Source of the DNA: an uncultured Eubacteriales bacterium
GTDB lineage: Bacteria > Bacillota > Clostridia > Oscillospirales > Oscillospiraceae
DNA length: 34,588 nucleotides
NCBI GenBank assembly: GCA_900317375.1
Contig: ONGJ01000033.1
Coordinates: 1-34,588 of the forward strand
Direction: 5' to 3'
Shown here: one piece after another, positions 3,069 to 20,699 of the stretch
Layout: every line of letters begins with the position of its first letter
Numbering within the stretch: the stretch's first letter is position 1
Program-made: the position numbers and the translations under genes
Notes under the pieces: model-generated
Database searches by the model: none
Told to the model about the DNA's origin: nothing
The model's input: the letters and a program-made list of their open reading frames with translations, nothing else

Positions 3069-3180
3069 CACATTTGAAGCAGTAAAACGCCACAGCGGGC
3101 AATTATGCCGCTCAGAAAAGCCAACGGAAAGAGAATGGCACTTTATCTGCCACCCGGAAAATTGAAGAGATAAGGCTTGC

Positions 3181-3217: not shown

Positions 3218-3340
3218 TCAACTCAGATAATACCATTTTAACGGGTATACCAAAATAATTCTTGTGCGGTGACTTTTCACCCGTCAATCCGGTAAAATTG
3301 TAGAGGAACGTTTTTTGTGAGACAGAAAGGGGATTTATCT

Positions 3341-4025
3341 ATGACTTACGGATATTGCAGAATCAGCAGGCCAACACAGAACATTGACCGGAAAGCCCGG
3401 AATATTTCAGAATATGATAGCACGGCAAAGCTGATCAAAGAAGCGTACACGGGAACAACGCAAGAGCGCCCAGCATGGTTAAAGCTTCGCAAGGGATTAA
3501 AGCCGGGGGGATACCGTGATATTTGATTCCGTTTCCAGAATGTCCAGAAACGCGGCAGAGGGGTTCCGGGAGTATCAAGAGCTTTTTGACGCCGGGGTTA
3601 ACCTTGTGTTCCTGAAAGAGCGGCACATTGACACAGAGACATACAAGACAGCTTTACAATCCGGTATTGATATGACGGGAAATCAGATCGCAGATATCTA
3701 TATTGAGGCCACAAACAGGGTATTGATGATTCTTGCACGGCAACAGATAGAGCTTGCTTTTCTGCAAGCGGAAAAAGAAGTGCAGGATTTGCACACTCGC
3801 ACAGCCGAGGGAATGAAGACAGCAAAGCTAAACGGGAAACAGACAGGTCGTCCTGTGGGCGCGGTGGTGGTTACAAAGAAATCTGTACATGCGAAAGCTG
3901 TAATCAAGCAACACTCGCGTGATTTCGGCGGGACGCTCAATGATACCGATGTGATCAAGTTAATTGGGGAAATCAGCCGGAATTCTTTCTACAAGTATAA
4001 GGCAGAGCTGAAAGCGGAAATGTAA
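3341..4025 (+). pseudogene. Serine recombinase (resolvase/invertase family), frameshifted
   Basis: The joined frames give a site-specific recombinase of about 227 residues. Residues 1-60 (YGYCRIS with the catalytic Ser, then EAYTGT) are in one frame. The rest is in another: DSVSRMSRN with the conserved arginines, the dimer helix, the GRPVG hinge, and a C-terminal helix-turn-helix-like region ending SFYKYKAEL. The switch falls in a run of six G at about 3505-3510, where five would keep the frame (KPGDTVIFDS). All expected blocks are present, so a single +1 event is the only visible damage. The start at 3341 has an AAAGGGG ribosome-binding site 8 nt upstream. Such enzymes belong to plasmids, transposons and integrative elements. 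The active state would need a -1 slip in the G run. A sequencing error is also possible. Confidence 0.85.
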
Positions 4026-4079
4026 AAAGGAATTATCCGAGCTTAACATTTCAATGATTTTTGATTTTTCCAGAAGCGT

Positions 4080-4116
4080 TTTTGAAGTGGGCAAACATGA
4101 TTCTGTATGCTATACT
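4080..4116 (+). promoter_or_regulatory. Extended -10 promoter, copy B (upstream of the acidic ORF)
   Basis: This element has the same length and layout as 3181-3217: TTTTGAAGTG at the left, GCA at the same offset, and TGCTATACT at the right. The middle differs. The first possible codon of the acidic ORF lies about 90 bp downstream. Two such copies in 1 kb suggest co-regulation by one factor of the former mobile element. Confidence 0.55.
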
Positions 4117-4204
4117 CAGATCATAGGTAAGGGTTCCTGACATTGTTTCCCTACTACCTATCAGATCTACCACCACTGCGGAAAAAATATAGAAAGGACT
4201 TGCA

Positions 4205-4399
4205 ATCACGGGCTATATCTTTGATCAGAGCACAGGGGGAGCGCTTTTTACGCTCGATGATAACACGGCGATAGACGAGAGAGGGAATATTGTCACAAGG
4301 ATTTCTGATGATATGGCTATTGACTTCAGCACAGGGGATGCACATTTCTTTTCTGATTGGGATTCAGAAGACAGCCTTGACAGCGACTTTGATTTCTAA
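4205..4399 (+). CDS. Highly acidic 64-aa protein with no standard start codon
   Basis: The frame from 4205 to the TAA at 4397-4399 reads as a coherent small protein (TGYIFDQSTGGALFTLDDN and onward). It contains about 16 Asp/Glu against two Arg and ends in an Asp/Ser/Phe tail. A GAAAGGA ribosome-binding site lies about 6 nt before the codon ATC at 4205, exactly where an ATG would be expected. An in-frame TAG lies upstream. Either ATC is used as a rare start or the gene has lost its start by one substitution. Promoter copy B lies upstream and a strong terminator downstream. Strong acidity in a mobile-element setting recalls DNA-mimic anti-restriction proteins, but I see no family match and that is speculation. 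Confidence 0.45.
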   Translation: MTGYIFDQSTGGALFTLDDNTAIDERGNIVTRISDDMAIDFSTGDAHFFSDWDSEDSLDSDFDF

Positions 4400-4464
4400 A
4401 TAGACAGAACAGGATTATATGCACATGCCTTTAGCCCATCACTAAATAATTCATGAGTATTATC

Positions 4465-4526
4465 AAGAAACAGACGATTTGTTCGCAGATCGTCTGTTTC
4501 TTTGTTCGGAGATCGTCTGTTTCTTT
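4465..4526 (+). terminator. Terminator with a duplicated 3' arm
   Basis: A 14-bp stem (4465-4478 with 4489-4502) closes a 10-nt loop and is followed by a T-containing run. A 23-nt unit carrying the 3' arm is then repeated in tandem (4481-4503 and 4504-4526, one difference). The single 5' arm could therefore pair with either copy. It follows the acidic ORF and directly precedes the promoter of the next gene. Confidence 0.75.
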
Positions 4527-4529
4527 TGG

Positions 4530-4558
4530 TTGTATTATACGAATCAATATGGTATAGT
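4530..4558 (+). promoter_or_regulatory. Sigma-A-like promoter of the InlB-repeat protein gene
   Basis: A TTGTAT -35 box (4530-4535), a 17-nt spacer and a TATAGT -10 box (4553-4558) lie about 70 bp before the start codon. Confidence 0.65.
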
Positions 4559-4625
4559 TATACTATTATATGTGTTTTTGCTAGTGAAAACCTGATTCAT
4601 AGGGATTTGCGGAGGGTTAAGGAAC

Positions 4626-7085: not shown

Positions 7086-7465
7086 ACAGGGTACAGTCGG
7101 TATGATTGTCTGATTATGCAGGAAAAAACAGAAAAATCTGACAGGTGCTGTTCACCGCAAACCGTACAGCGGTGGCTGTTATCAGCCGTCGCTTCTGTAA
7201 ACTATAGTTACTTTCGACATTTAGACTTACGTTAGGAAGCATTCTACTATGTCCTACATTCACTATGACAAAAAACCAAGTAAACTGTTGACGAAGACAA
7301 AAGGCCGGTGCGTTTGGTGCATCGGCCTTAAGTCTATCCATATTGCGCTTCTATTTTTCGTAAGTTTTTCGTAAGGTCAAATTAAGAGCCTGTCAAAAGT
7401 TCCGAAAAACGATGCAAAATCCGATAGAATCAATTAATCTGAGCTGAATAGTTCCTTATCAGTAC
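7086..7465. other. Gene-free right flank of the AT-rich island
   Basis: No gene is supported here. There is an imperfect 11-bp hairpin at 7301-7329 (one G-U pair). Its only T-rich side is on the minus strand, so it is a poor terminator for the upstream plus-strand gene. A GAGCCTGTCAAAAG tract near 7387 looks like an insertion-sequence end, but no partner copy was found. In-frame coding sense resumes just after a TGA at about 7446 (IVPYQYMPPM), which marks where the truncated gene at 7466 begins to make sense. Confidence 0.4.
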
Positions 7466-8563
7466 ATGCCGCCCATGGAGGTTGTGGTGGTACCGCATCA
7501 GGCCGGCTGGAGCACGGTAGATCCTGAGAAGGGCGATCCGGTTGATTTCGACCCCGAGACCACCCCGATTACGACGGATATCGAGCTCTGGGCCTATATG
7601 GAAAGCTTTGTGGTAAGCTACAGCGCGAATGCAACTGACCTTACAAAGCCGGTTCCCGCAGATCAGACCAAGACCTATGGCAAAGCTCTTACCCTTTCCA
7701 GCGAAGAACCTGCGCGCGATGGGTACAAGTTCATCGGCTGGGGCTTTGCGGCCGCAGACGTTGAGCCCACCTATCAGCCGGGCGACTCTTATGAAAAGGA
7801 TGAAAATGTCACCCTGTACGCCATTTGGGAGAATCAGGTAGACAGCATCATCAAGACCGGCTATGAAAAGATGCTCGGTCGTGATCCTGATGCCGAAGGC
7901 CTTGCCTACTACGAGAAGGAACTTACAGAAAAGAGACTGACCGGCGCAAAGATGGTCAGCAACTTCATGAACAGCCCCGAATTCGCCGAGATCGCGAAGG
8001 ATCTGAGCAATGAAGAGATCGTCGCCCTCATCTATGAGACCATGCTGGGCCGTGAGCCGAGCCCGGAGGAAGCTGCCTATCATGCAGCCAACCTTGATCA
8101 GGGTTACAGCTACAACGCGATCATCAACTGCTTCTCGCAGTCTCCCGAGTTCCTGGCAATCTGCAACGATGCCGGCATTGAAGCCGGTACCGCCGAACTG
8201 ATGTGGCGCGATAAGAACATGCTTGTTACCGAGTTTGTCAAGCGTAATTACAGGCTGACTCTTGAGCGTGAAGCTGAAGTCGACGGACTGGAGTACTACT
8301 GCGAGACCCTGTTGCAGAAGTATGAGACTCCGCAGCAGGTTGCGACCCACTTTGTGTTCTCTGACGAGTGCGTTGCACGCGGACTGAGCGATGAGGAATT
8401 CATCACGATGCTGTACAACCTGTACATGGATCGCGCACCTGAGGCGGAAGGCCTTGCCTACTACAAGGATCTCCTTGCCAACGGCGTCAGCCGCGAGCAG
8501 ATTGATGCCAACTTCGGCGCATCGCCCGAGTTTGCAGAAATCGTAAAGAGCTACGGTCTCTGA
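7466..8563 (+). CDS. DUF4214-domain protein, 5'-truncated surface protein
   Basis: The open frame gives 365 residues. Residues 1-125 are the end of an InlB/Flg_new-type repeat region (DGYKFIGWGF, ENVTLYAIW). The remainder is DUF4214: LGRDPDAEGLAYY, LGREPSPEEAAYH, a SYNAIIN block, FVKRNYRLTLERE, LYMDRAPEAEGLAYY and a final SPEFAEIVKSYGL. The C-terminal 150 residues align closely with those of the protein at 142-2256. There is no signal peptide and no ribosome-binding site at the ATG. Protein-like sequence continues upstream of the ATG to a TGA about 21 bp before it. The gene therefore seems to be the 3' remnant of a larger secreted protein whose 5' end was lost at the island boundary. It is followed by a strong terminator. 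Confidence 0.8.
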   Translation: MPPMEVVVVPHQAGWSTVDPEKGDPVDFDPETTPITTDIELWAYMESFVVSYSANATDLTKPVPADQTKTYGKALTLSSEEPARDGYKFIGWGFAAADVEPTYQPGDSYEKDENVTLYAIWENQVDSIIKTGYEKMLGRDPDAEGLAYYEKELTEKRLTGAKMVSNFMNSPEFAEIAKDLSNEEIVALIYETMLGREPSPEEAAYHAANLDQGYSYNAIINCFSQSPEFLAICNDAGIEAGTAELMWRDKNMLVTEFVKRNYRLTLEREAEVDGLEYYCETLLQKYETPQQVATHFVFSDECVARGLSDEEFITMLYNLYMDRAPEAEGLAYYKDLLANGVSREQIDANFGASPEFAEIVKSYGL

Positions 8564-8599
8564 TCGTAAGGTCAGAAGCACAGCAAAACAGCAAAACCA

Positions 8600-8641
8600 A
8601 AACAGCCCTGCGGATCTTCGGATCCGCAGGGCTGTTTCCTT
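8600..8641 (+). terminator. Rho-independent terminator with UUCG loop
   Basis: A perfect 17-bp stem (8600-8616 with 8621-8637) closes a TTCG tetraloop and is followed by CCTTT. It ends the DUF4214 transcript and isolates the operon that starts at 8665. Confidence 0.9.
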
Positions 8642-8664: not shown

Positions 8665-8693
8665 TTGAAAGACATGCGACAATCTGGTAAAAT
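8665..8693 (+). promoter_or_regulatory. Sigma-A-like promoter of the phosphonate/glycopolymer operon
   Basis: A TTGAAA -35 box (8665-8670), a 17-nt spacer and a TAAAAT -10 box (8688-8693) lie about 35 bp before the ATG at 8729. This is the only good promoter seen before the eight-gene operon. Confidence 0.75.
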
Positions 8694-8728
8694 GACAACA
8701 TATCGCGAGGAACAGGAGATTAACACGC

Positions 8729-11700
8729 ATGACGGGACGGTTACGGGACAGAAGAAAACTGCAGGCCTGGACCATGCTGAGCTTTGCGACGGCCTTTCTG
8801 TTCTCTATATTCGCGCCGATGGAGGCATATTACGCAAACCTGGATCAGTACTGGTTCAGCCTGGGACAGCTTTTGGGCGTGTGCCTGCCGGTTTTTCTGA
8901 TTTCCTTCGCGCTGATGGAGGGCCTGGGCCTGCTGCTCAGCGGCAAAAAGGCGGGGGACGCCGTCTTCGCGTTGCTACTGGCGGCCTATGTGTATTTTTA
9001 TATCCAGGGCAATTTCATCCCGCGGGATTACGGCGTACTGAACGGACGTGCAATCGACTGGGACGCGTATCCCGGATATGCGGCGGCGAGCATTGCTGCG
9101 TTGCTGCTGTGCCTTGGGGCGGGTCTTGCGCTTTGCCTGTGCTTTCGGGATAAGCTGCACGCGGCGGGGGCGGGGGTCTGTGTCTTCGTGCTGCTGGTAC
9201 AGCTTGTCACGCTGGGGACGCTGATCCTGCAGCATGGAATGAAGCGGCAGGAAGAAGGGACCATCGTCACGCAGGAGCATGCTTTTGATCTTTCCAGGGA
9301 CAGGAACCTGATCGTCTTTGTGCTGGATACCTATGACGCCGGTTTTTTTGCAGAACTGCTGGAGCAGGACAGGGAACACTTGGAGGACATTTTCGAGAAC
9401 TTCACTTGGTATCCCGATACGCTGAGCGCCTATCCCACCACGCGGGCGGCCATGCCACAGATCTTGACGGGAAAATGGTACGAGAATCGCGAGCCGTACG
9501 AGGACTTTGTAGCGGCGGCCTGGGAGGAAAGCCCCGGTTTTCAGGCTCTGCAGGAACGGGATTACCGGGTTGCGGTCTACACGGACCCCTTTTACCTCAG
9601 CGAGGATTATACGCGATATGAAAACACCGAGCGCGGACGTGTCCGCATCGCGGACCGAGGGGAATTCGCACGGGTGCTGTGGCGTCTGGTGTGCTTCAAC
9701 TATATGCCGCACCAGCTCAAGGCCGCTTTTGCCGTCGATGGAACGGAGTTCCGGGACCTGAAGGCGGCGGAATCCGGCGTACCTGTGTTCCGACAGGACA
9801 CAGTGAAGTTCGCCCGCCGTTTTGCGGAGGAGGGACTCAGCGCCGAAGAGGGTGGAAACTGCTTCCGCCTGTACCATCTGGACGGGGTGCACGACCCTGC
9901 GACTTTCGGCAGCGCGCTGCGCGAGGACGGCGGGGAGTATACCGCGACGGACGAGGCCGCCGGGAACAACGAGCTTCTCGCCGCCTGGTTTCAGGCCATG
10001 AAGGAGGCGGGGATCTATGACAGCGCCGCCATCATCATCATGGCCGACCACGGCCGTCTGGCCTTTGACCAGAACCCACTCTTCCTTGTCAAGAACGCCG
10101 GGGAACGGCATGCCTTCACCGTTTCGCGGGAGGAGATGAGCTATGAATACCTGCCGCGGATCTGGAAAACCCTTGCAGAGGGAACGGCGGTGAACGAGGG
10201 CTTCGTGCGCGCCTGCCGGCCAGAACAGGGTCAACGCAGGTTTCTGTACTACAGCTGGGACGACGCGTGGAAGAGGACCTATATGCCGGGGATGGAGGAG
10301 ATGCTCTGTGACGGGTCGGCCTCCGAGCCCGGCAGCCTGAAACCCACGGGGAGAAGCTATATCGCCGAAGGCGAGGACCGCGCCTACCGCCCGGGCAGCC
10401 GCCTTGCCTTTACGGAGGGCAGGTCGGCCTATCCCTATGTGCTGTACGGCATATCCAACGGAACGCTGATGCAGGACGCTGCGATGGCCTTTGACCTGAA
10501 GGGGAAGAACGGGGACCTGACGGCGGAGATCCTTCTCGCCGACAGCAGCATCCCGGGGCCCCTGACGGTGACCGCAAACGGGGTGCCGGTGGCCGAAAAG
10601 GCCTTTTCTCCCGGGGTGGGGCCGATCCGGGTCTTTATCCCGGAGGACTGCATCGACCCGGACGGCCGTCTTGAGCTGCGCTTTCAGCGGCCGGAGAGCG
10701 AGGCGGACAGCGCCGCGATGACGCCCTCGGGCACGGTGTTTCGCGAGATGAGACTGAGAAAGGCGAAGCGGGGTGAGAGCCTCGAGGACTGCTTCACGGC
10801 CTTTCGCTATGTGCCCGGGACGAACGCGGGCTTTACCCGCGCTGACCCTTCGGGGATGGAATTCATTCTGAGCGGCTTTTCCGTACCGGAGGAGGACGGC
10901 ACCTGGACAGACGGAAAGGAAGCAGCGCTGCGCCTGCGTCTGCCGGAGGAAACGGCCGGGGACCTGACGCTGCGCATCGGGTATGCCAGCTTTCACGGGG
11001 AGCAGCGCGTGCGCGTCCTCGCAAACGGGACGCCGGTGGCAGAGCTGACGGCGGCGGGCGAGGAAGAGCGGGAAATCCGCATCCCGTCAGAATGTGCGGC
11101 AAGCGGGACGCTGGAGCTTCGGCTGGAGCTGCCGGACGCGCATTCGCCGGCCTCCGTGGGCGAGAGCACGGATGAGCGGGCGCTTGCCCTGCTGATCCGC
11201 TCGATGCAGATCGTGCCGGCGGCAGGATCGGCCGCACAGCCGGGAGAAGAAAGCATGGGTGTGGTATCTTCCCTTCTGGGCGGGATCCTGAACCGCTGCT
11301 GTGCCCTGGTCGGAAGCCGGGGATGGGGGATCGTGCTGTTCACGCTGGTCACCAAAATCCTGCTGTTTCCGGTGGCGCTGTGGACCAACCGGAACAGCCT
11401 GAAGATGGTATCGGTGATGCCGGCGGTCAACCGGCTGAAGATCCGGTATTACGGGGACAGGGACACGATCGCCGAGGAGACCCGGACGCTTTATCAGAAG
11501 GTCGGCTACCGGCCGCTGGCGGGAACGGTGCCGCTGTTCCTGCAGCTGTTTCTGCTGATCGGGGTGATCGGCGCAGTGCGCATCACGCTGAGCACTCCGG
11601 AGAGCGCGCTGTCGCGGCTGCCCGCCGAGGCGGGGGGCGCGGCCCTGCTGGCGCCCGCGGCGGCCGGGCTTTCGGCCCTGGCCCTGGGCCTGGCCCAGAA

Positions 11701-13129
11701 CCGCCTCAACTCGCTGCAGCGGGAACAGAGCCGGGCAAGCCAGTGGGCCACCAACGGGCTGTCCATCGCCGTCTCGCTGTTTCTGGGGGCCTTCGTGCCG
11801 CTGGGCGTGGTGCTGTACTGGATCTGCAGCAACCTGATGAGCATCCTGCAGCAGCTGGTGCTGAACGCCCTGCAGCCGCCGGAGAAATACGTGGACTATG
11901 CGGCCCTGGAACAGAGCCGAAGAGAACTGAGCGAGCTGGACGCCCTGAAGGGCCGGGTTAACCGCGAGGACAGAAAGCGGGAGAAAGCGGACTACAGGCG
12001 CTTTTTCTCGGTGGTGAACAAGCACCTGGTCTTCTATTCCGAGGGCGGCGGCTTTTATAAATATTTCCGGGGCTACATCGAATACCTGCTGAAATACACG
12101 AACCTGACCATCCACTACATCACCGGGGACGCGAAAGACCGCATCTTTGAGATGGAAAGGGAAAACCCCAGGATCCGGGCCTACTATATCGGTGAAAACC
12201 GGCTGATCACGCTGATGATGAAGATGGACGCGGACATGGTCGTGATGACCACGCCGGATCTTGAGAACTTTCATATCAAGCGAAGCTATGTGCGCCGGGA
12301 CATCGAATACGTCTATGTCCAGCACGACATGAACAACCACGCGATGCTGATGCGGCGGGGCTGTACGGACCACTTTGACACGATATTCTGCGCCGGACCG
12401 CACCAGAAGGCGGAGGAAGAGGCCTTCGAGGCCGTCTACGGCCTGGCCCCGCGCAAACTCGTGGAGGTGGGATACCCGCTGATCGACGAACTGCGCGCGG
12501 CGTACCGGGCGCAGACGCACCCGGAGGGCGAGGGGAAAAAAATCCTGATCGCACCCTCCTGGCAGAAGGACAACATCATCGACAGCTGCCTGGAGGTGAT
12601 TCTGGACGGCCTGAAGGACCGCGGCTATGAAATCACCGTGCGGCCCCACCCCCAGGAGGTACGCCAGAAGCAGGGGACCATGCAGGCCCTGAAGCAGAAA
12701 TACGAGCCCGCCGGCATCCGGATTCAGACGGACTTTACGTCGGACAGCCCGGTGACGGAGGCGGACCTGCTGATCACCGACTGGTCCGGGATCAGCTGGG
12801 AATACGCCTTTACGACGCTGCGCCCGGTGCTGTTCATCAACACGCCGATGAAGATCATGAACCCCGACTATCGGGAGATCCCGACGGAGTCGGTCAACCT
12901 GAGTCTGCGGGATCAGCTGGGCAAGAGCCTGGAGCTCGGCGAGCTGGACAAAACGGCTGAGACGGCTGCCTTTTTGCTGGAAAACCGCGAGCAGTACCGC
13001 GAGCGGATCGCGGCGCTGGCAGAGCGCTGGATCTACCATCTGGACGGGGCTGCCGAGGTGGGCGGAAACTACCTGGCCCGGAGCATTCAGGATAAAATCA
13101 GACAGAAGAAGGAGAAACAAACGGAATGA
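8729..13129 (+). CDS. Fusion: LtaS/sulfatase-like domain + YidC/Oxa1-like domain + CDP-glycerol glycerophosphotransferase
   Basis: This 1466-residue membrane protein has four recognisable parts. Residues about 13-175 form four to five membrane helices. Residues about 190-500 form an alkaline-phosphatase-superfamily domain: VFVLDTYDAGFF metal site, a Thr-rich AYPTTRAAMP nucleophile region, MADHG ligands. The LtaS/MdoB resemblance implies an external phospho- or phosphoglycerol-transfer role. Residues about 550-830 hold two beta-sandwich modules, each with a VxANGxPVAE repeat. Residues about 850-1045 match YidC/Oxa1: VTKILLFPVALW with Lys at the usual groove Arg, LYQKVGYRPLAGTVPLFLQL, and GVVLYWICSN. 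Residues about 1085-1455 match TagB/TagF: VGYPLIDEL, IAPSWQKD, RPHPQ, DLLITDWSGISWEYAF. Such domains are normally separate proteins. An AGGAG ribosome-binding site lies 10 nt upstream. As first gene of the phosphonate operon it is the likely polymer-assembly or decoration enzyme. Substrate and topology are inferred. Confidence 0.85.
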   Translation: MTGRLRDRRKLQAWTMLSFATAFLFSIFAPMEAYYANLDQYWFSLGQLLGVCLPVFLISFALMEGLGLLLSGKKAGDAVFALLLAAYVYFYIQGNFIPRDYGVLNGRAIDWDAYPGYAAASIAALLLCLGAGLALCLCFRDKLHAAGAGVCVFVLLVQLVTLGTLILQHGMKRQEEGTIVTQEHAFDLSRDRNLIVFVLDTYDAGFFAELLEQDREHLEDIFENFTWYPDTLSAYPTTRAAMPQILTGKWYENREPYEDFVAAAWEESPGFQALQERDYRVAVYTDPFYLSEDYTRYENTERGRVRIADRGEFARVLWRLVCFNYMPHQLKAAFAVDGTEFRDLKAAESGVPVFRQDTVKFARRFAEEGLSAEEGGNCFRLYHLDGVHDPATFGSALREDGGEYTATDEAAGNNELLAAWFQAMKEAGIYDSAAIIIMADHGRLAFDQNPLFLVKNAGERHAFTVSREEMSYEYLPRIWKTLAEGTAVNEGFVRACRPEQGQRRFLYYSWDDAWKRTYMPGMEEMLCDGSASEPGSLKPTGRSYIAEGEDRAYRPGSRLAFTEGRSAYPYVLYGISNGTLMQDAAMAFDLKGKNGDLTAEILLADSSIPGPLTVTANGVPVAEKAFSPGVGPIRVFIPEDCIDPDGRLELRFQRPESEADSAAMTPSGTVFREMRLRKAKRGESLEDCFTAFRYVPGTNAGFTRADPSGMEFILSGFSVPEEDGTWTDGKEAALRLRLPEETAGDLTLRIGYASFHGEQRVRVLANGTPVAELTAAGEEEREIRIPSECAASGTLELRLELPDAHSPASVGESTDERALALLIRSMQIVPAAGSAAQPGEESMGVVSSLLGGILNRCCALVGSRGWGIVLFTLVTKILLFPVALWTNRNSLKMVSVMPAVNRLKIRYYGDRDTIAEETRTLYQKVGYRPLAGTVPLFLQLFLLIGVIGAVRITLSTPESALSRLPAEAGGAALLAPAAAGLSALALGLAQNRLNSLQREQSRASQWATNGLSIAVSLFLGAFVPLGVVLYWICSNLMSILQQLVLNALQPPEKYVDYAALEQSRRELSELDALKGRVNREDRKREKADYRRFFSVVNKHLVFYSEGGGFYKYFRGYIEYLLKYTNLTIHYITGDAKDRIFEMERENPRIRAYYIGENRLITLMMKMDADMVVMTTPDLENFHIKRSYVRRDIEYVYVQHDMNNHAMLMRRGCTDHFDTIFCAGPHQKAEEEAFEAVYGLAPRKLVEVGYPLIDELRAAYRAQTHPEGEGKKILIAPSWQKDNIIDSCLEVILDGLKDRGYEITVRPHPQEVRQKQGTMQALKQKYEPAGIRIQTDFTSDSPVTEADLLITDWSGISWEYAFTTLRPVLFINTPMKIMNPDYREIPTESVNLSLRDQLGKSLELGELDKTAETAAFLLENREQYRERIAALAERWIYHLDGAAEVGGNYLARSIQDKIRQKKEKQTE

Positions 13130-13416
13130 AAAGAAGCCTGCCCATGCTGTCGGCCTGCCTGCTGACCGCCGTCAGCGCCATGCTCTTTTTCGGGGTCAAC
13201 GGCGAGGCCTATATCGACCCCTCGGTCATGACCTATATGATCCAGGCCATCGCCGGCCTGGTGATCGCCGTCGGCGCCATCGCGGGGATCTATTACCGCC
13301 GGGCGAAAAAGAAGATCAGCAAGACCCTGAACATCGACGAGAACCGCGGCAAGGAAGTGGAGAGCGACGAGATCGTCATCCGGGACGAACAGCAGGATGA
13401 AGGCACTCATTCTTAA
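13126..13416 (+). CDS. Small membrane protein (96 aa) of the operon
   Basis: The start ATG overlaps the stop of the preceding fusion gene (ATGA). The protein has a signal-peptide-like hydrophobic N-terminus (residues 5-25, then GVNGEAY), a second hydrophobic helix (residues 34-54, AIAGLVIAVGAIAGIYY), a basic stop-transfer cluster (RRAKKK) and a charged, acidic tail of about 40 residues. It is not recognised as a named family. Translational coupling to the YidC/glycerophosphotransferase fusion suggests a partner or stability subunit. It could be a substrate of the signal peptidase encoded four genes on, but that is only inference from position. Confidence 0.75.
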   Translation: MKRSLPMLSACLLTAVSAMLFFGVNGEAYIDPSVMTYMIQAIAGLVIAVGAIAGIYYRRAKKKISKTLNIDENRGKEVESDEIVIRDEQQDEGTHS

Positions 13417-15406
13417 CTCCGGGCGCGGCTCGCGGATGGGCGCGCTCACGGCAGGACAGCCGAAATGCCTGACGGCTGTCTCGCCGCGCGAGACGATCCT
13501 CTCGCGCCAGCTTCGCATGATCGCCGAGGCGGGGATCGAAGAGGCCGTGATCACGACGGGATACCTGGACGGCGCACTTGAGGAGGCCTGCCGGGGCCTG
13601 GAACCGGAGATGCGCATCCGTTTTGTCAAAAACCCCCTCTACGACCGGACCAACTATATCTACAGCATCTACTGCGCCAGGGAAGCGCTGGACGACGACA
13701 TCCTGATGATGCACGGCGACCTGGTGTTCGAAAACGAGGTACTGGACCGGATGCTGGCCTGCGAGGCGTCCTGCATGGCGGTGTCGTCCACGCTGCCCCT
13801 GCCGGAGAAGGACTTCAAGGCCAGGGTGCTGAACGGCCGGGTCACGGCCGTCGGCACGGGCATTTTTGACGACGCCGTGGCGGCGCAGCCGCTTTATAAG
13901 CTGCACCGGGACGACTGGCGCCGGTGGCTGGACCGGATCACGGCGTTCTGCGAGGCGGGCAGGACCGGGGTTTACGCCGAGGAGGCCCTGAACACGCTGG
14001 ACGGGGCGGCCGACATCGAGGCGCTGGACATGCAGAACCTGCTCTGCGCCGAGATCGACAACGCCGAGGACCTGGCGGCCGTGAGCGCGAGACTGAAGGC
14101 GGTCGAGGCGCGCACGGTCTATCTCTGCTTTTCAACGGACATCATCCACGGCGGGCACATCGCGATCATCAAAAAAGCCCAGCGGCTCGGAAGGCTGATC
14201 ATCGGGGTGCTGTCGGACGAGGCGGTGGCGTCCTATAAGCGGATGCCCCTGGTACCCGCGGCGGAGCGCCGGGTCATGTTCGAGAACATCGCGGGCGTCT
14301 GGAAGGTCGTGGAACAGAACAGCCTGAGCTACCGCGAGAACCTCGAGAAATACCGGCCCGACGTGGTCGTGCACGGGGACGACTGGTGCAGCGGCTTTCA
14401 GAAGCCCATCCGGGACGAGGTCTGCGCGATCCTCGCCTCCTACGGGGGAAGGCTGGCGGAGTTCCCGTACAGCCGGGACGACCGGTACCGCGAGATCGAG
14501 GCAAGAACGCGCGCCGACCTCGCCATGCCGGACGTCCGCCTCGGACGCCTGAAACGAATGCTGGAAGCGAAGGGCCTGGTCACGGCGATGGAGGCCCACG
14601 ACGGCCTGACGGGCCTGATCGTCGAGAACACCGTCGTGCATGAAAACGGCGGTGCGCGTCAGTTCGATGCCATGTGGATCAGCTCCCTCTGCGACTCGAC
14701 GGCGAAGGGAAAGCCGGATATCGAGCTGGTGGACATGACCTCGCGCTTTCGCACGGTGGAGGACATCAGCGAGGTCACTACCAAGCCCATCCTCTTCGAC
14801 GGGGATACCGGCGGAAGGGCCGAGCATTTTGTCTATACGGTGCGCTCGCTGGAACGCCTGGGCGTGTCGATGGTCATCATCGAGGACAAGACCGGCCTGA
14901 AGAAGAACAGTCTCTTCGGCACCGAGGTGCTGCAGACACAGGAGAACACGGAGAACTTCTGCGCCAAGATCCGGGCAGGCAAGAAGGCGCAGAGAACGAA
15001 GGCGTTCATGATCTGCGCGCGGATCGAGTCGCTGATCCTGGAGCAGGGGATGGAGGACGCGCTGGAACGCGCGTACGCCTATGTCACCGCGGGCGCCGAC
15101 GCCGTCATGATCCACAGCCGGAAGAAGGACCCGGCGGAGATTTTCGAGTTTCTCGAGCGCTTTCGCAAAAAGGACCCCGCGACGCCCGTCGTGCTGGTAC
15201 CCACCAGCTTCAACAGCGTGCGGGAAGAGGAATGGAAGCGGCGGGGGGCAAGCATCATCATCTATGCCAACCAGCTTATGCGGGCCGAGGTACCCGCCAT
15301 GCAGAAGGCCGCGGAGACGATCCTGCGCTGCCACAGGGCGGAGGAGTGCGACGGGATGCTGATGCCGTTTCAGGATATCATCCGGCTGATCCCGGCGGAG
15401 ATATGA
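13397..15406 (+). CDS. Phosphoenolpyruvate mutase fused to two nucleotidyltransferase domains
   Basis: This 669-residue protein has three domains. Residues 1-225 resemble LicC-type sugar/choline nucleotidyltransferases: ALILNSGRGSRMG, a NYIYSIYCAREAL block, MMHGDLVFE. Residues about 235-365 are a TagD-like cytidylyltransferase (STDIIHGGH with the HxGH motif, VVHGDDW). Residues about 380-669 are PEP mutase, with the diagnostic EDK-x5-NS motif (EDKTGLKKNS), FDGDTGG and ICARIES. PEP mutase turns phosphoenolpyruvate into phosphonopyruvate, the C-P bond-forming step. The cytidylyltransferase domain(s) probably make a CMP-phosphonate donor. PEP mutase with one nucleotidyltransferase is known in surface-phosphonate clusters; two in one chain is less usual. 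It overlaps the previous gene by 20 bp and the next by a few bases. Substrate of each nucleotidyltransferase is inferred. Confidence 0.9.
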   Translation: MKALILNSGRGSRMGALTAGQPKCLTAVSPRETILSRQLRMIAEAGIEEAVITTGYLDGALEEACRGLEPEMRIRFVKNPLYDRTNYIYSIYCAREALDDDILMMHGDLVFENEVLDRMLACEASCMAVSSTLPLPEKDFKARVLNGRVTAVGTGIFDDAVAAQPLYKLHRDDWRRWLDRITAFCEAGRTGVYAEEALNTLDGAADIEALDMQNLLCAEIDNAEDLAAVSARLKAVEARTVYLCFSTDIIHGGHIAIIKKAQRLGRLIIGVLSDEAVASYKRMPLVPAAERRVMFENIAGVWKVVEQNSLSYRENLEKYRPDVVVHGDDWCSGFQKPIRDEVCAILASYGGRLAEFPYSRDDRYREIEARTRADLAMPDVRLGRLKRMLEAKGLVTAMEAHDGLTGLIVENTVVHENGGARQFDAMWISSLCDSTAKGKPDIELVDMTSRFRTVEDISEVTTKPILFDGDTGGRAEHFVYTVRSLERLGVSMVIIEDKTGLKKNSLFGTEVLQTQENTENFCAKIRAGKKAQRTKAFMICARIESLILEQGMEDALERAYAYVTAGADAVMIHSRKKDPAEIFEFLERFRKKDPATPVVLVPTSFNSVREEEWKRRGASIIIYANQLMRAEVPAMQKAAETILRCHRAEECDGMLMPFQDIIRLIPAEI

Positions 15407-15408
15407 CG

Positions 15409-16548
15409 ATGGAACAGACGATCATCGGTGCGGAAAACGACTACAGCCAGCTGGACGGATGGCTAAGAGACAGCGGGGCTGAGACGGTCCTGCTGGTCTG
15501 CGGGAAATCCATCGGGCGGCAAGCGATCGGCCGCTATTTCGAGGCGCTTCCCGGACGCCTTGGCATCCGGGTTGTCCGCTTTTCGGCGTTTGCACCGAAC
15601 CCGGTCTATGAATCCGTGCGCGAGGGCGTGGCGCTGTTTCGCAGGGAAGGCTGCCAGGGCCTGATCGCGGTGGGCGGCGGCTCGGCCATCGACGTGGCCA
15701 AGTGCATCCGGCTCTGGGCCTGTCTGCCCGGGGACGGCGCGGACGGGGCCTGGCTGCGGCAGGAGGGGGGAGGCCGGGACGTCCCCTTTCTGGCCATGCC
15801 GACCACGGCTGGGACCGGCTCGGAGGCGACGCGGTTCGCAGTGATCTACGAGCAGGGCGAAAAGCAGAGCGTGACAGACGAAAGCCTGATCCCGGATGCG
15901 GTTCTGCTGGATCCGGGGGCGCTGAAAACCCTGCCGGAATACCAGAGGAAGGCCTGCATGATGGACGCCCTCTGTCACGCGATCGAATCCTTCTGGTCGG
16001 TTAACAGCACGGAGGAGAGCCGGGAATACAGCAGACGGGCGACGGAAGCGGTCCTGCGGCATATGGACGGATACCTCGCGAATACCGATGAGGGAAACGC
16101 AGGGATGCTGATGGCCGCGCATACGGCGGGCCGGGCCATCAACCTCGCCCAGACGACGGCGGGGCATGCCATGTGTTACAAGATCACGTCGCTGTTCGGC
16201 TGTGCCCACGGGCACGCGGCCGCCCTCTGCGACCGGGTTCTGTACCCCTGGATGACGGAGCATACGGCGCTCTGCCGCGACCCGCGGGGCAGAGCGTGGC
16301 TCGAGGGGAGGCTGGACGACATCGGGCGGGCCATGGGCCAGAAAAACGCGGCGCAGGGCGCCGAAAAGCTGGGACGGATTTTCGACGGGCTGGGGCTTTC
16401 CGTGCCGGGGGCAACGGAGGCGCAGTTTGCCATCCTCAGGACCTCGGTCAATCCGGTCCGGATGAAAAACCACCCCGTCACGTTGGACGCGGCGGCAATC
16501 GACGCGCTCTACCGCAGGATTCTGTCGGAGGAAAACAGTGAAGGTTGA
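15409..16548 (+). CDS. Iron-type alcohol dehydrogenase, probable phosphonoacetaldehyde reductase
   Basis: A group III (iron-dependent) alcohol dehydrogenase of about 380 residues. The NAD(P)-binding GGGSAIDVAK and TTAGTGSEAT motifs are clear. The metal ligand region is also present (DALCHAIESFWS, TTAGHAMCYK, GCAHGHAAAL). Its place between PEP mutase and phosphonopyruvate decarboxylase points to reduction of phosphonoacetaldehyde to 2-hydroxyethylphosphonate, as known for related dehydrogenases in phosphonate clusters. No aminotransferase is nearby, so 2-aminoethylphosphonate is a less likely product. The second ATG (15409) was chosen because GGCGGAG lies 8 nt upstream. The ATG at 15403 would overlap the previous stop and has almost no spacing. 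The frame stays open far upstream, but that part is a shadow of the PEP mutase gene. Confidence 0.85.
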   Translation: MEQTIIGAENDYSQLDGWLRDSGAETVLLVCGKSIGRQAIGRYFEALPGRLGIRVVRFSAFAPNPVYESVREGVALFRREGCQGLIAVGGGSAIDVAKCIRLWACLPGDGADGAWLRQEGGGRDVPFLAMPTTAGTGSEATRFAVIYEQGEKQSVTDESLIPDAVLLDPGALKTLPEYQRKACMMDALCHAIESFWSVNSTEESREYSRRATEAVLRHMDGYLANTDEGNAGMLMAAHTAGRAINLAQTTAGHAMCYKITSLFGCAHGHAAALCDRVLYPWMTEHTALCRDPRGRAWLEGRLDDIGRAMGQKNAAQGAEKLGRIFDGLGLSVPGATEAQFAILRTSVNPVRMKNHPVTLDAAAIDALYRRILSEENSEG

Positions 16549-17656
16549 AGACTTTATCGAGATCGTCGGCGCCGATTTCTACACCGGGGTGCCGGACAGC
16601 CAGCTCAGAGCCCTTTGCGACTGCCTAACGGCGAAATACGGCACCGACGCGCGGCACCACATCATCGCGGCAAACGAGGGCAACGCCGCGGCGCTGGCGG
16701 CGGGCTATCACCTGGCAACGGGCAGAGCGGCAGCGGTCTATCTGCAGAATTCCGGCGAGGGAAACATCGTCAACCCCATGGCCAGCCTGCTCCACGAGCG
16801 GGTCTACGGGATTCCCTGCCTGTTCATCATCGGATGGCGAGGCGAGCCGGGGGTGCACGACGAGCCGCAGCATATATACCAGGGCGAGGTGACGCTGAAG
16901 CTGCTGGAGGATCTGGAGATCGCCTATTCCGTCATCGGGAAAGAGACGACCGAGGCCGAGCTGCGGCGGAGTATGGAGGGTTTCCGCACTCTTCTGGCCG
17001 CGGGGAGCTGTGCCGCCTTCGTTGTCCGGAAGGGCGCACTGACAGATGCACCGAAGGTCTTCTACGAGAACGACAACAGCATGAAGCGGGAAGAGATCAT
17101 CCGCCGCCTTGTCCGCGTCAGCGGTGAGGACCCGATTATCTGCACGACCGGGAAGGCGAGCAGAGAGCTCTTTGAAATCCGCGAGGCCAACGGGCAGGGG
17201 CATGCATACGATTTCCTGACGGTGGGGTCGATGGGGCACGCCAGTTCCATCGCCCTCGGCGTGGCGATCCGGAAACCGGAGCGGACAATCTGGTGCATCG
17301 ACGGGGACGGTGCCATGCTGATGCATATGGGCGCGATGGCCGTGATCGGCGAGTACAGGCCCGGGAACCTGGTGCATGTCGTGATCAACAACGGCGCCCA
17401 CGAGACCGTCGGGGGCATGCCCACGGCGGCGGGCGTGGACCTTGTCGGCATCGCCCGGGCCTGCGGCTATCCCCATGCCGTGCGGGTCGGGGACTATGAC
17501 AGCCTGGACAGAGAGCTTGCGGCGGCAAAGAGCAGAGGCGAGCTGAGCTTCCTGGAAGCCGCCTGTTCCCTCGGCGCTCGGGAGAATCTCGGTCGGCCGA
17601 CGACCGCGGCGCAGGAGAACAAAAAGAGCTTCATGACCTGGCTCGGGACACGGTGA
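16538..17656 (+). CDS. Phosphonopyruvate decarboxylase (ThDP-dependent)
   Basis: A 372-residue thiamine-diphosphate enzyme that decarboxylates phosphonopyruvate to phosphonoacetaldehyde, the step that pulls the unfavourable PEP mutase equilibrium forward. The N-terminal pyrimidine-binding part has the catalytic Glu in AANEGNAAALAAGYH, then YLQNSGEGN and GWRGEPGVHDEPQH, typical of Ppd. The C-terminal part has the ThDP motif GDGAMLMHMGAM ending in INNGAHETVGG. The length fits the family. The start is GTG with a GGAGG ribosome-binding site 7 nt upstream. It overlaps the dehydrogenase stop by 11 bp, so the two are translationally coupled. The gene order here is mutase, reductase, decarboxylase. 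Confidence 0.93.
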   Translation: MKVEDFIEIVGADFYTGVPDSQLRALCDCLTAKYGTDARHHIIAANEGNAAALAAGYHLATGRAAAVYLQNSGEGNIVNPMASLLHERVYGIPCLFIIGWRGEPGVHDEPQHIYQGEVTLKLLEDLEIAYSVIGKETTEAELRRSMEGFRTLLAAGSCAAFVVRKGALTDAPKVFYENDNSMKREEIIRRLVRVSGEDPIICTTGKASRELFEIREANGQGHAYDFLTVGSMGHASSIALGVAIRKPERTIWCIDGDGAMLMHMGAMAVIGEYRPGNLVHVVINNGAHETVGGMPTAAGVDLVGIARACGYPHAVRVGDYDSLDRELAAAKSRGELSFLEAACSLGARENLGRPTTAAQENKKSFMTWLGTR

Positions 17657-17660
17657 GCCA

Positions 17661-18146
17661 ATGCACCGGGCGAGCGCCGTGAAGAAAACAATGTGCACGA
17701 CCCTTATCCTGGCCGCGATCGTGGCGGCCTGTGCGTATGTGTCGGCCGGGTGGTTCCGGTTGATGCTGATCCGGGGCGATTCCATGCTGCCGGCTTATCA
17801 TAACATGCAAATCGTGGTACTGGACAGGCACAGCCGGGAATATCGCAGGGGGGATGTGATCGCCTTTCACTGCGAGGGCTTTAAGGCGGTCCTGGTCAAG
17901 CGGATCGCTGCCTGCGGCGGAGACCGCGTGCAGATTGCAGAGGGGACGCTTTTTGTAAACGGAGAGGCATCGCCCCTTTACGAAAAGGGCGCCTTCGACC
18001 GCGCGGGGTGCCTCGAGGAAGAGATCCGGCCGGCGCAGGGGGAATACGTGGTCATCGGCGACAACACTGCCGAGAGCCGAGACAGCAGGGATGAAGCGGT
18101 CGGAACGATACGCGCGGAAGAGATTATCGGAAAGGTGATCGGCTGA
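17661..18146 (+). CDS. Signal peptidase I (S26 family)
   Basis: A 161-residue, single-pass type I signal peptidase. An N-terminal membrane anchor (residues 9-31) is followed by GDSMLPAY with the catalytic Ser and by VLVKRIAACGGDRV with the general-base Lys. The end carries GDNTAESRDSRD. The length fits the short Gram-positive form. It starts 4 bp after the decarboxylase stop, so it belongs to the same operon. A processing peptidase inside a polymer cluster is unusual. Possible local substrates are the signal-peptide-bearing small protein at 13126-13416 or an unlinked surface protein. It might instead be a housekeeping copy that happens to lie here. Confidence 0.9.
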   Translation: MHRASAVKKTMCTTLILAAIVAACAYVSAGWFRLMLIRGDSMLPAYHNMQIVVLDRHSREYRRGDVIAFHCEGFKAVLVKRIAACGGDRVQIAEGTLFVNGEASPLYEKGAFDRAGCLEEEIRPAQGEYVVIGDNTAESRDSRDEAVGTIRAEEIIGKVIG

Positions 18147-18169
18147 CCGGGGAAGGCGGTGATTCTGAA

Positions 18170-19753
18170 ATGTATAAGCGCAGCAGTCAGGGCTGGATCA
18201 AACATATGGATTTCATCCTCTGGGACGTCTTTGCCCAGCAGCTGGCCTTCAACCTGTGCTACTGCCTGTATAACCGCACGGGGGCTCTTGTCTATTCTGA
18301 CCCGGACTACCGCAGTCTCGGCATCCTGCTGGCGCTGCTGGACGTCGCGGTGGCGGTGCTTTTCAACACCATGCACGGCGTGCTGAAGCGGGGCTATTAT
18401 CAGGAAGCAGCACAGACCCTCCGCCAGGTTGCGCTGGTCTTTGTCGGGATTACCCTGTTCCTCTTCACAATGAAGCTGGGCAGCGTGTACAGCCGCGTGA
18501 TTCTGAGCACGACGGCGCTGACGCATTTCCTGTTTTCCTATCTGTTCCGCCTGCTGTGGAAGCGGCATCTGAACCGCACGGCAGACCAGCATATAAAAAA
18601 CAGCATGATCCTCGTAGCGCCCGAGGACGCGGTCGGCGTGGTGCTTGGCTCGCAGGCGTCGGCCGACGAGACCAGGGTCGTCGGGGTCGTCCTGACGGAC
18701 AGAGACGCGGAGGGAGAGACGGTCGCAGGGCTTCCGGTGGTGGCGAACCTGGACAACGCGGCCCGGTATATCTGCCGCGAATGGGTGGACGAGGTGTTCT
18801 TCTGCCCGGATTCGCTTTCGGTGGGAAAGAACGCCGCAGCCGGGATCCCGCCCTCCGTGGACAGCATCCTCTATGACAGCTTCCCCGACTATGCCAGAAA
18901 GGCCAGACAGACAACGCAGGAGGCGGAAACGGAGGCGGCGGACGGTCCCGCCGCGGAGCAGAACGGGGTCTCCAGGCTGATCGAGCAGTGCGGGCAGATG
19001 GCGATTCCCGTGCATATCCTGCTGCCGGTCGGCGCCATGGGCGGAAAGAGCTTCGTTGAAAAGGTATACGGATTCGACGTACTGACCCACGCGGCGAACA
19101 CGGCCTCGCCCCTGCAGCTTCTGCTCAAGCGCGGGGCGGATCTGGCGGGAGGGCTCGTCGGCAGCCTTGCCGCCGTGCTGATCATTCTGATTGTCGGACC
19201 GCTGATCAAAATCGCCTCGCCCGGCCCGATCCTTTTCCGGCAGGAGCGGATCGGCCTGAACGGCAAACACTTCCGGATGCTGAAGCTGCGTTCGATGGAC
19301 GTGGACGCGGAAGAGCGGAAGGCCGAACTGCAGGATCAGAACTGCGTCTCGGACGGACGCATGTTCAAAATGGAGTTTGACCCCCGCATCATCGGCAACC
19401 GGATTTTGCCGGACGGGACAAAAAAGACCGGCATCGGCGAGTTCATCCGCCGGACCAGTCTGGACGAGTTTCCGCAGTTTTTCAATGTGCTGAAGGGGGA
19501 CATGAGCCTGGTGGGGACCAGGCCACCCACCCTGGACGAGTGGGAGCGGTATGAGCTGCACCATCGGGCAAGACTGTCCGTCCGCCCGGGCATCACGGGT
19601 CTGTGGCAGGTCAGCGGCCGCAGCGAGATCACGGATTTTGAGGAGGTCGTCCGCCTGGATACCCAGTATATCAACAACTGGAGCATCGGGCTGGATATCC
19701 GCATCCTGCTGAAGACGGTGAAGATTGTCCTTTGCGGACGCGGGGCCAGGTGA
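18170..19753 (+). CDS. Undecaprenyl-phosphate sugar-1-phosphate transferase (WbaP/WcaJ type)
   Basis: This 527-residue polyprenyl-phosphate hexose-1-phosphate transferase starts a surface glycan by loading the first sugar phosphate onto undecaprenyl phosphate. The N-terminal half has four hydrophobic helices and a CoA-binding-like domain (SMILVAPEDAV, VVGVVLTDRD). The C-terminal bacterial sugar transferase domain (PF02397 type) begins near residue 315 with KRGADLAGGLVGS, then GPILFRQERIGLNGK and FRMLKLRSM, the DE motif in RRTSLDEFPQFFNVLKGDMSLVGTRPP, and RPGITGLWQVSGR. A Glu/Ala-rich stretch near residues 245-260 looks like a loose linker. A GGAAGGCGG ribosome-binding site precedes the ATG. 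Its presence implies the phosphonate is attached to a lipid-linked glycan. The sugar cannot be read from the sequence. Confidence 0.9.
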   Translation: MYKRSSQGWIKHMDFILWDVFAQQLAFNLCYCLYNRTGALVYSDPDYRSLGILLALLDVAVAVLFNTMHGVLKRGYYQEAAQTLRQVALVFVGITLFLFTMKLGSVYSRVILSTTALTHFLFSYLFRLLWKRHLNRTADQHIKNSMILVAPEDAVGVVLGSQASADETRVVGVVLTDRDAEGETVAGLPVVANLDNAARYICREWVDEVFFCPDSLSVGKNAAAGIPPSVDSILYDSFPDYARKARQTTQEAETEAADGPAAEQNGVSRLIEQCGQMAIPVHILLPVGAMGGKSFVEKVYGFDVLTHAANTASPLQLLLKRGADLAGGLVGSLAAVLIILIVGPLIKIASPGPILFRQERIGLNGKHFRMLKLRSMDVDAEERKAELQDQNCVSDGRMFKMEFDPRIIGNRILPDGTKKTGIGEFIRRTSLDEFPQFFNVLKGDMSLVGTRPPTLDEWERYELHHRARLSVRPGITGLWQVSGRSEITDFEEVVRLDTQYINNWSIGLDIRILLKTVKIVLCGRGAR

Positions 19754-19796
19754 GCATGTTTCCGGAGAGACCGGAGGAAAGGAAGACCGAGAGCGT

Positions 19797-20699
19797 ATGA
19801 AAGGGATCATTCTTGCCGGCGGGGCCGGGACGAGGCTGTACCCGCTGACGCTTGTGATCAGCAAACAGCTTTTGCCGATCTACAACAAGCCGATGATCTA
19901 TTACCCGCTGTCGACTCTGATGTTGGCGCGGATTCGGGAGATCCTTGTGATCTCGACGCCGGAGGATACACCGCGGATCCGGACCCTGCTGGGGGACGGA
20001 AGCCAGTTCGGCATCCGGCTGGACTATGCCGTTCAGCAGGAGCCGAAAGGCCTGGCCGAGGCCTTTACCATCGGGAGGGAGTTTCTTGGAAACGAGCCCT
20101 GCGCGATGATCCTGGGCGACAATCTCTTTTATGGCAACGGCCTGGCCAACAGACTCGCAGCGGCCGCGGAAGCGGCGGAACAGGGCCTGGCTACCGTGTT
20201 CGGATACTATGTCGAAGACCCGGAACGCTTCGGCGTGATGGAGATTGAAAGAATGGCGGACGGAGACCGAAACTTCCGGGTGATCAGTCTGGAGGAAAAG
20301 CCGGAAAAACCAAGGTCCAACTATGCCGTGGTGGGGCTGTACTTTTACCCGGCAGGCGTCAGCGAAAGGGCGGCGCAGGTAAAACCCGGCGCCAGAGGAG
20401 AGCTCGAGATCACGAGCCTGAACGAGATATATCTCCGGGAGGGACGCCTGACCGCCCAGCTGTTCGGCCGCGGCTACACCTGGATGGACGCGGGAACGAT
20501 CGATTCTCTGCGCAGGGCGACCAATTTCGTCTGCATGATCGAGCAGTATCAGGGGATGAGCATCTCAGCTCCGGAAGAGATCGCCTATCTGTACGAATGG
20601 ATCGACAGGCAGCAGCTTGCCGAGAGCGCGGCGCGGTACGGGAACAGCCCTTACGGAAAGCACCTGAAGGCGGTGCTCGACGACAGGGTGATCTTTTAG
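19797..20699 (+). CDS. rmlA: Glucose-1-phosphate thymidylyltransferase
   Basis: A 300-residue RmlA-family enzyme that makes dTDP-glucose from dTTP and glucose-1-phosphate. The start MKGIILAGGAGTRLYPLT is textbook, followed by SKQLLPIYNKPMIYYPLS, GDNLFYGNG, EEKPEKPRSNYAV and GYTWMDAGTIDSL. The ATG at 19797 fits the family. A longer frame from 19725 would add residues that match nothing and overlap the upstream gene. It is the last gene of the operon, 43 bp after the sugar transferase. The next steps of the dTDP-rhamnose pathway (rmlB, rmlC, rmlD) are not in the window, so they must be elsewhere, or dTDP-glucose itself or another derivative is used. Confidence 0.93.
   Translation: MKGIILAGGAGTRLYPLTLVISKQLLPIYNKPMIYYPLSTLMLARIREILVISTPEDTPRIRTLLGDGSQFGIRLDYAVQQEPKGLAEAFTIGREFLGNEPCAMILGDNLFYGNGLANRLAAAAEAAEQGLATVFGYYVEDPERFGVMEIERMADGDRNFRVISLEEKPEKPRSNYAVVGLYFYPAGVSERAAQVKPGARGELEITSLNEIYLREGRLTAQLFGRGYTWMDAGTIDSLRRATNFVCMIEQYQGMSISAPEEIAYLYEWIDRQQLAESAARYGNSPYGKHLKAVLDDRVIF

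Follow-up and report, generated by a model that had tools for sequence, protein, structure and literature searches.

We describe here an eight-gene operon in a 34,588-nucleotide stretch of DNA (the window) from an uncultured Eubacteriales bacterium of the family Oscillospiraceae (GenBank assembly GCA_900317375.1, contig ONGJ01000033.1). The window is one entire contig (C55). The draft genome to which it belongs measures 3.08 Mb in 161 contigs and is 94.75% complete. The operon occupies positions 8729–20699, and very probably makes and activates 2-hydroxyethylphosphonate (HEP) and hands it to a teichoic-acid-related membrane machine. Its genes are co-directional on the plus strand and are separated by overlaps or short gaps only (Table 1): the neighbour pairs 1/2, 2/3, 3/4, and 4/5 overlap, and genes 5/6, 6/7, and 7/8 are spaced by 4, 23, and 43 bases, respectively. 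A preliminary description of the region, made from the sequence alone, had recognized seven genes and a single promoter. The seven genes are real, but an eighth (gene 2) was overlooked; the tight packing also stands, but the promoter is a weak candidate only, because a scan of the region found three promoter-type sites versus 2.6 expected.

Table 1. Features of the operon and its surroundings in the window
Feature	Position	Strand	Evidence
Candidate promoter, TTGAAA-17-TAAAAT with TG before the -10 element	8665–8693	+	10/12 matches; just before gene 1
Gene 1, 1466 aa, membrane, LtaS-like, YidC, and Glyphos_transf domains	8729–13129	+	Pfam/NCBIfam, profiles
Gene 2, 96-aa small membrane protein with AYIDPSVMTY	13126–13416	+	Overlaps; homologues in YidC-Glyphos loci
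Gene 3, 669-aa phosphoenolpyruvate (PEP) mutase triple fusion	13397–15406	+	NTP_transf_3, CTP_transf_like, and PEP_mutase; TIGR02320
Gene 4, iron-type alcohol dehydrogenase, proposed phosphonoacetaldehyde reductase	15403–16548	+	PF00465, 1.4e-36
Gene 5, phosphonopyruvate decarboxylase	16538–17656	+	TIGR03297
Gene 6, signal peptidase I	17661–18146	+	TIGR02227, 86.9 bits (cut-off 47)
Gene 7, polyprenyl-phosphate glycosylphosphotransferase (initiating sugar transferase; Bac_transf)	18170–19753	+	TIGR03025, 336.8 bits (cut-off 295.55)
Gene 8, RmlA glucose-1-phosphate thymidylyltransferase	19797–20699	+	TIGR01207, 415.1 bits (cut-off 360.65)
LytR-CpsA-Psr (LCP) family protein, candidate wall-attachment enzyme, outside the operon	26957–28066	+	PF03816, 8.6e-34

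Genes 3 to 5 correspond to the synthesis and activation of HEP. Gene 3 encodes a LicC/PntC-type nucleotidyltransferase (residues 1–232), a Fom1-type cytidylyltransferase (approximately 238–359), and a PEP mutase (385–667). The mutase scores 393.1 bits against TIGR02320 (equivalog cut-off, 319.55), and its motif EDKXXXXXNS is intact (EDKTGLKKNS, residue 496); the genome contains a single match to the mutase fusion (E 0.001). Gene 5 is likewise above the equivalog cut-off of TIGR03297 (434.7 versus 312.5 bits). Gene 4 passes the general model of the iron-type alcohol dehydrogenases (126 versus 31.3 bits), and its counterpart in Segatella is annotated as a phosphonoacetaldehyde reductase. The mechanical open reading frame of this gene begins at 14674, within the coding sequence of the mutase; the ATG at 15403, which overlaps the mutase stop codon, is the probable start, and the next ATG is at 15409. 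In the stretches fetched for 80 mutase relatives, 64 contain the decarboxylase, 59 the iron-type dehydrogenase, and 54 both. The route from PEP through phosphonopyruvate and phosphonoacetaldehyde to HEP, which the preliminary description had put forward, is thus well supported as a whole at the level of sequence; the reductase step is its least supported part, and it is the gene context that points to phosphonoacetaldehyde as the substrate of gene 4.

The second domain of gene 3 carries the HxGH motif of cytidylyltransferases (HGGH, residue 251). Its closest solved structure is the Fom1 cytidylyltransferase (5x3d, 3e-35), to which 58 of 121 residues are identical (48%) in a gapless alignment, whereas ethanolamine-phosphate and glycerol-3-phosphate cytidylyltransferases were matched only at 1.8e-12 and 2.8e-08, respectively. 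The N-terminal domain resembles LicC (1jyk, 3.1e-09). The assignment of the mutase, the decarboxylase, and the cytidylyltransferase to their families is therefore well supported, and the earlier suggestion that the cytidylyltransferase domains yield a cytidine monophosphate (CMP)-phosphonate is consistent with these matches.

According to family models, profiles, and a 17-member alignment of YidC-Glyphos fusions, gene 1 consists of a membrane and LtaS-like part (residues approximately 1–560), a middle region (561–850), a YidC domain (865–1046), and a Glyphos_transf domain (approximately 1100–1466). The reading frame is uninterrupted throughout, and its parts occur as separate genes in relatives. 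The Glyphos_transf domain had been predicted before, and PF04464 was indeed matched above its gathering score (1.5e-10, 41 bits versus 22.1). The YidC domain was recognized by PF02096 (4.6e-29) and by the YidC/Oxa1 model TIGR03592 (92 bits; cut-off, 84.3), and its profile matched solved structures down to 7.2e-24. The position before the first conserved Pro is Lys in this profile, whereas Escherichia coli YidC has an Arg there, which we take to be the groove Arg. Three YidC matches are present in the genome, so the housekeeping insertase may be one other than the fusion. Another of the genome's contigs (C88; L205, 1–2163) encodes a second odd YidC, in which an alkaline-phosphatase-type domain seems, on visual inspection, to follow the YidC domain.

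The LtaS-like domain, which probably belongs to the alkaline phosphatase superfamily and spans residues 190–525 or so, escaped the preliminary description. Taken alone, it is below the cut-off of the Sulfatase model PF00884 (14.2 versus 25 bits). The best solved match of a profile built from 12 relatives is Staphylococcus aureus LtaS (2w5r, 2.4e-07), and D200, H388, and DHG at 440–442 are invariant. In L133/L140, both the YidC and the LtaS-like profiles matched within one protein. No relative of the middle region was found among the loci first collected, to which this search was confined.

Gene 2 fills an apparent gap of 267 bp between genes 1 and 3, sharing ATGA with the stop of gene 1 and 20 bases with the start of gene 3. 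In a simple hydropathy scan, its product (hereafter, the YIDPS protein) showed two hydrophobic stretches (4–26 and 33–57). No Pfam or NCBIfam model was matched above cut-off, and a profile run over the 13,334 open reading frames of the loci then collected yielded matches exclusively in loci with YidC-Glyphos fusions.

The full YidC-Glyphos fusion was found in 18 loci, a set of biased origin that includes the window. Eight of them came from genomes already known to hold mutase relatives (L080, L103, L135, L136, L137, L138, L141, and L142), five from a genus search of 61 genomes (L156–L160), in which L103 and L136 were found again, and four from a class search of 391 genomes (L170–L173). The YIDPS protein is present in 17 of the 18 loci and is fused to the LtaS-like protein in L172; in L137, neither the profile nor a six-frame search for a YIDP-type motif detected it. 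An LtaS-like protein or domain is present in 15 loci (all but L135, L138, and L171), some of the stretches being cut short by contig ends. Its placement varies: it is fused to YidC-Glyphos in the window, lies 6.7 kb away in L136, and is encoded on the opposite strand in L142. Four of the 17 other loci have a relative of signal peptidase I next to the module (L157; L158, where the contig end cuts it; L170; and L172), and the peptidase of gene 6 may have a role in the system. What is unusual about the operon is its receiving side, the recurring combination of the YidC-Glyphos fusion with the LtaS-like domain and the YIDPS protein.

A search for PEP mutase genes next to such fusions had been proposed as a check, and the HEP cassette was found in four of the 18 loci: the window, L080, L103, and L171. 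Gene order differs among them. In L103/L104, the YIDPS protein and YidC-Glyphos are followed by the nucleotidyltransferase, the cytidylyltransferase-mutase fusion, the dehydrogenase, the decarboxylase, and the LtaS-like protein. The order in L080 is LtaS-like protein, YIDPS protein, YidC-Glyphos, decarboxylase, nucleotidyltransferase, cytidylyltransferase-mutase, and dehydrogenase; L171 starts with YidC-Glyphos, followed by the same four genes from decarboxylase to dehydrogenase and then by the YIDPS protein. An origin of the gene set by chance or artefact was ruled out: the mutase and decarboxylase are above curated cut-offs, the genes form an overlapping run, and the set recurs in the three other loci.

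Taken together, these data favour, on balance, a reading in which genes 3–5 make CMP-HEP and the Glyphos_transf domain of gene 1 transfers HEP onto a membrane acceptor, a reading that we consider somewhat probable from the gene content. PEP mutase would convert PEP to phosphonopyruvate, the thiamine pyrophosphate-dependent enzyme of gene 5 would decarboxylate it to phosphonoacetaldehyde, the iron-type dehydrogenase would reduce this to HEP, and the Fom1-type domain would turn HEP into CMP-HEP. The Glyphos_transf domain, anchored by YidC, would then move HEP to an acceptor bound to the membrane, for which a sugar begun by gene 7 and linked to undecaprenyl diphosphate is the likeliest candidate. 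The YIDPS protein and the LtaS-like half of gene 1 would have their role outside the membrane, acting on the product, and the LCP enzyme, encoded 6.3 kb downstream of the operon, may attach it to the wall. We infer CMP-HEP as the donor of the Glyphos_transf domain, and likewise the sidedness of the reaction, the nature of the acceptor, and the roles of the LtaS-like domain and the small protein.

The glycan side of this scheme was anticipated in the preliminary description, and both the initiating sugar-phosphate transferase and RmlA are above their cut-offs. However, no glycosyltransferase, flippase, or polymerase was matched by Pfam or NCBIfam models among the eight genes, so that the earlier claim of a complete operon goes too far. 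Nor need the product be a decorated glycopolymer: HEP on a glycan, a phosphonolipid, and a HEP-containing polymer all fit the genes.

The strongest alternative, which we consider unlikely but worth weighing, is that CMP-HEP is made but YidC-Glyphos transfers glycerol or another alcohol from its cytidine diphosphate (CDP) derivative and is merely co-operonic, HEP being passed to an acceptor by an unlinked enzyme. The Pfam name of the transferase family refers to CDP-glycerol. Moreover, several observations speak for such a separation or otherwise weigh against the scheme given above. No PEP mutase is present in the stretches collected for 14 of the 18 loci, and, excluding the window, the mutase stands beside the fusion in only 2 of the 11 places obtained by the genus and class searches (L103 and L171). 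HEP is therefore not the general donor of the module. Of the five fusion-bearing genomes of the class sample, two (G345 and G472) carry fusion and mutase on separate contigs. Within the genus, a strong match to the mutase was found only in the host genome and G001 among 37 genomes. Glyphos_transf occurs within 6 kb of the mutase in just 13 of 83 scored loci, with the window, L080, and L103 counted; as a universal partner of the triple fusion, it was therefore ruled out. Among 105 immediate neighbours, LicD was counted nine times and Glyphos six times (within the first 25 of 135 families), so that LicD is as common there; these counts suggest that several transferase solutions exist. In a tree of the 18 fusions, the HEP loci require three changes (2–3 in bootstrap replicates), L080 having a long branch, and the test against a single HEP clade was borderline (p-AU 0.048). 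Gene 4 scores far under the cut-off of the only phosphonate model that it matched, that of the phosphonate-associated iron-type dehydrogenase PsrA (TIGR03405; 128.2 of 423.7 bits). Finally, because the genome is 94.75% complete and in 161 contigs, a gene that was not found may be unassembled.

On the other side, the overlaps among genes 1 to 5 speak against this alternative. Only one Glyphos_transf protein was found in the genome, and no glycerol-3-phosphate cytidylyltransferase (TIGR01518) was detected above cut-off; the best match (39.5 of 165.4 bits) is the mutase fusion's own domain, and the next one scored 12.4 bits. CMP-HEP is therefore the likeliest donor. Furthermore, the four linked mutases do not group as a single clade: in a quick tree of 43 hand-chosen rows, they require four changes, and placing them in one clade was rejected (p-AU 1.3e-11). 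Cassette and module were thus joined or parted several times, the count of changes being neutral between gain and loss. In the class sample (thresholds of E ≤ 1e-60 for the mutase and E ≤ 1e-40 for the fusion), 32 of 391 genomes contained the mutase and 5 the fusion; 4 contained both, and in 2 of these (the host and G378) the two were adjacent. The presence of the mutase in four of the five fusion genomes exceeds its overall frequency (Fisher, 0.00018; 0.0017 with the host genome removed).

A broader proposal, which we regard as speculative, is that the YidC-Glyphos fusion, the LtaS-like domain, and the YIDPS protein constitute a previously unrecorded, teichoic-acid-like polymer machine with exchangeable donor cassettes, which would polymerize CMP-HEP when combined with the HEP cassette. 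Because the HEP molecule ends in a phosphonate on one side and in a hydroxyl on the other, repeated transfer would build a poly(2-hydroxyethylphosphonate) chain; if so, this would be a teichoic acid with carbon-phosphorus bonds in its backbone. Besides the HEP loci, donor-type neighbours were identified only in L138, L142, L159, and L160. Proteins combining a MarR-type domain, a nucleotidyltransferase, and a choline kinase are encoded beside the modules of L159 (10725–12500, opposite strand) and L160 (12142–14166), which suggests a phosphocholine or phosphoethanolamine donor there. The neighbour in L142 is a nucleotidyltransferase with a MarR-type domain. In L138 (2869–8783), YidC-Glyphos, a PPDK_N/PEP-utilizer protein, a Peptidase_C26/GATase protein, an NTP transferase, and the small protein are tightly packed, and this set looks like another donor cassette.

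It is doubtful that the product is a phosphonolipid, formed by attaching HEP to a lipid, with HEP head groups being moved by the LtaS-like domain. LtaS moves glycerol phosphate from phosphatidylglycerol, and it is LtaS that is the best solved relative of the LtaS-like profile; that domain is, moreover, fused to or near the transferase in most module loci (15 of 18). However, a glycan is suggested by the presence in the operon of RmlA and an initiating sugar-phosphate transferase, by a Bac_transf gene close to the HEP cassette in L171, and by the polysaccharide genes that surround the Segatella cassette.

We consider it improbable that gene 4 acts on another aldehyde and that the product is not HEP but, for example, 2-aminoethylphosphonate (AEP) formed via an enzyme encoded elsewhere. 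The dehydrogenase family is broad, every NCBIfam score of gene 4 is below cut-off, and three weak matches to AEP transaminase occur in the genome. None of these reaches the cut-off of TIGR03301 (best, 36.1 of 360.8 bits), and the operon itself has no aminotransferase, as the preliminary description had stated; the joint occurrence of the dehydrogenase with the mutase and the decarboxylase (54 of 80 relatives) and the Fom1-type cytidylyltransferase also point to HEP. A control on loci with the decarboxylase but without the dehydrogenase (possible AEP types) gave no support either way, as no aminotransferase was matched among ten neighbour genes, taken singly from six of ten such loci and from four loci with neither gene. 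It is very unlikely that HEP is made on the way to a secreted small phosphonate such as fosfomycin or methylphosphonate: the first three steps and the cytidylyltransferase do match the start of the fosfomycin route, but the remaining operon genes are of envelope type, and no radical SAM, epoxidase, or dioxygenase match was found among the operon genes, to which this search was confined.

Comparison with known systems places the novelty of the operon in its receiving side. In the fosfomycin route, the decarboxylase Fom2 and the iron-type reductase FomC give HEP, and the operon resembles Fom1-Fom2-FomC in having a mutase-cytidylyltransferase fusion, a decarboxylase, and an iron-type reductase; it differs in the additional N-terminal LicC/PntC-type domain and in carrying envelope genes in place of methylation and epoxidation genes. 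In 2014, Yu et al. reportedly described phosphonoglycans of Glycomyces and Stackebrandtia with HEP on a surface polysaccharide. Their producers are actinomycetes, and we know of no YidC-Glyphos/LtaS-like module in these systems. The Glyphos_transf and LtaS-like domains and the LCP protein recall the teichoic acid machinery (TagF/TagB-type Glyphos_transf, LtaS, and LCP), in contrast to which the host has no TagD above cut-off and the operon has a YidC-fused Glyphos_transf, the YIDPS protein, and phosphonate donor genes; the lack of TagD argues against an ordinary teichoic acid system.

The Fom1 domain makes CMP-HEP in fosfomycin biosynthesis (PMC6697681). According to the sections covered of the same survey (Rice 2019, PMC6697681), the mutases of Pnt clusters are fused to PF12804 and/or PF01467, and 42 of 1485 mutases are triple fusions, so that the fusion type of gene 3 is not new; the two PntC enzymes characterized there prefer AEP. 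Pnt clusters share with the operon the cytidylyl activation of a phosphonate, but the operon has a reductase in place of the transaminase and a YidC-Glyphos fusion as the likely transferase. In those sections, phosphonyl tailoring after carbon-phosphorus bond formation is called enigmatic, and activation but not the transfer step is characterized (PMC6697681). The flagellin glycan of Clostridioides difficile bears AEP, and the survey cited in the part consulted found no pepM there (PMC8861647); this is a precedent for phosphonate on a clostridial surface. The CMP-phosphonate logic, the triple fusions, HEP as a natural surface group (reportedly in Glycomyces), and phosphonate on clostridial flagellin are thus already known. 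Neither a YidC-glycerophosphotransferase fusion nor a HEP teichoic polymer was the subject of any paper listed by our searches of the open-licence PMC literature, nor did these searches meet the partner small protein or a link between the fusion and HEP.

The operon points to a new way of placing phosphonate, with its unusually tough carbon-phosphorus bond, on the cell surface. Because a candidate transferase is co-operonic with phosphonate synthesis and activation, and neither a rival Glyphos_transf protein nor a CDP-glycerol synthase above cut-off was found, the transfer step is directly testable. The YIDPS protein and the YidC-Glyphos fusion would be good markers for finding similar systems.

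Close relatives of the triple-fusion mutase were also found in other phyla, in a Segatella copri plasmid (L002, NZ_CP085933) and a Synergistales metagenome-assembled genome (L079). The Segatella fusion is 66.4% identical over 100% of the query and lies in a capsule-type locus, in one run with aepY, a phosphonoacetaldehyde reductase, and a CDP-glycerol glycerophosphotransferase family protein. Its Glyphos_transf protein differs from that of the window in standing alone, and it is accompanied by an O-antigen polymerase, a flippase, and glycosyltransferases. These relatives suggest horizontal spread of the HEP cassette.

Upstream of the operon, positions 2001–8000 of the window have a G+C content of 0.42–0.48, versus 0.57–0.66 in the operon, and encode repeat-rich surface-type proteins (Flg_new, LRR_5, and DUF4214) together with a weak resolvase match. 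An 18-pair hairpin at 8599–8638, between the DUF4214 gene and the operon, was scored as a minus-strand terminator. Elsewhere on the contig (21176–23752 on the minus strand and 30653–33438 on the plus strand) lie genes for an amidohydrolase, an S-adenosylhomocysteine hydrolase, an S-adenosylmethionine synthetase, and a polyphosphate kinase of the PPK2 type.

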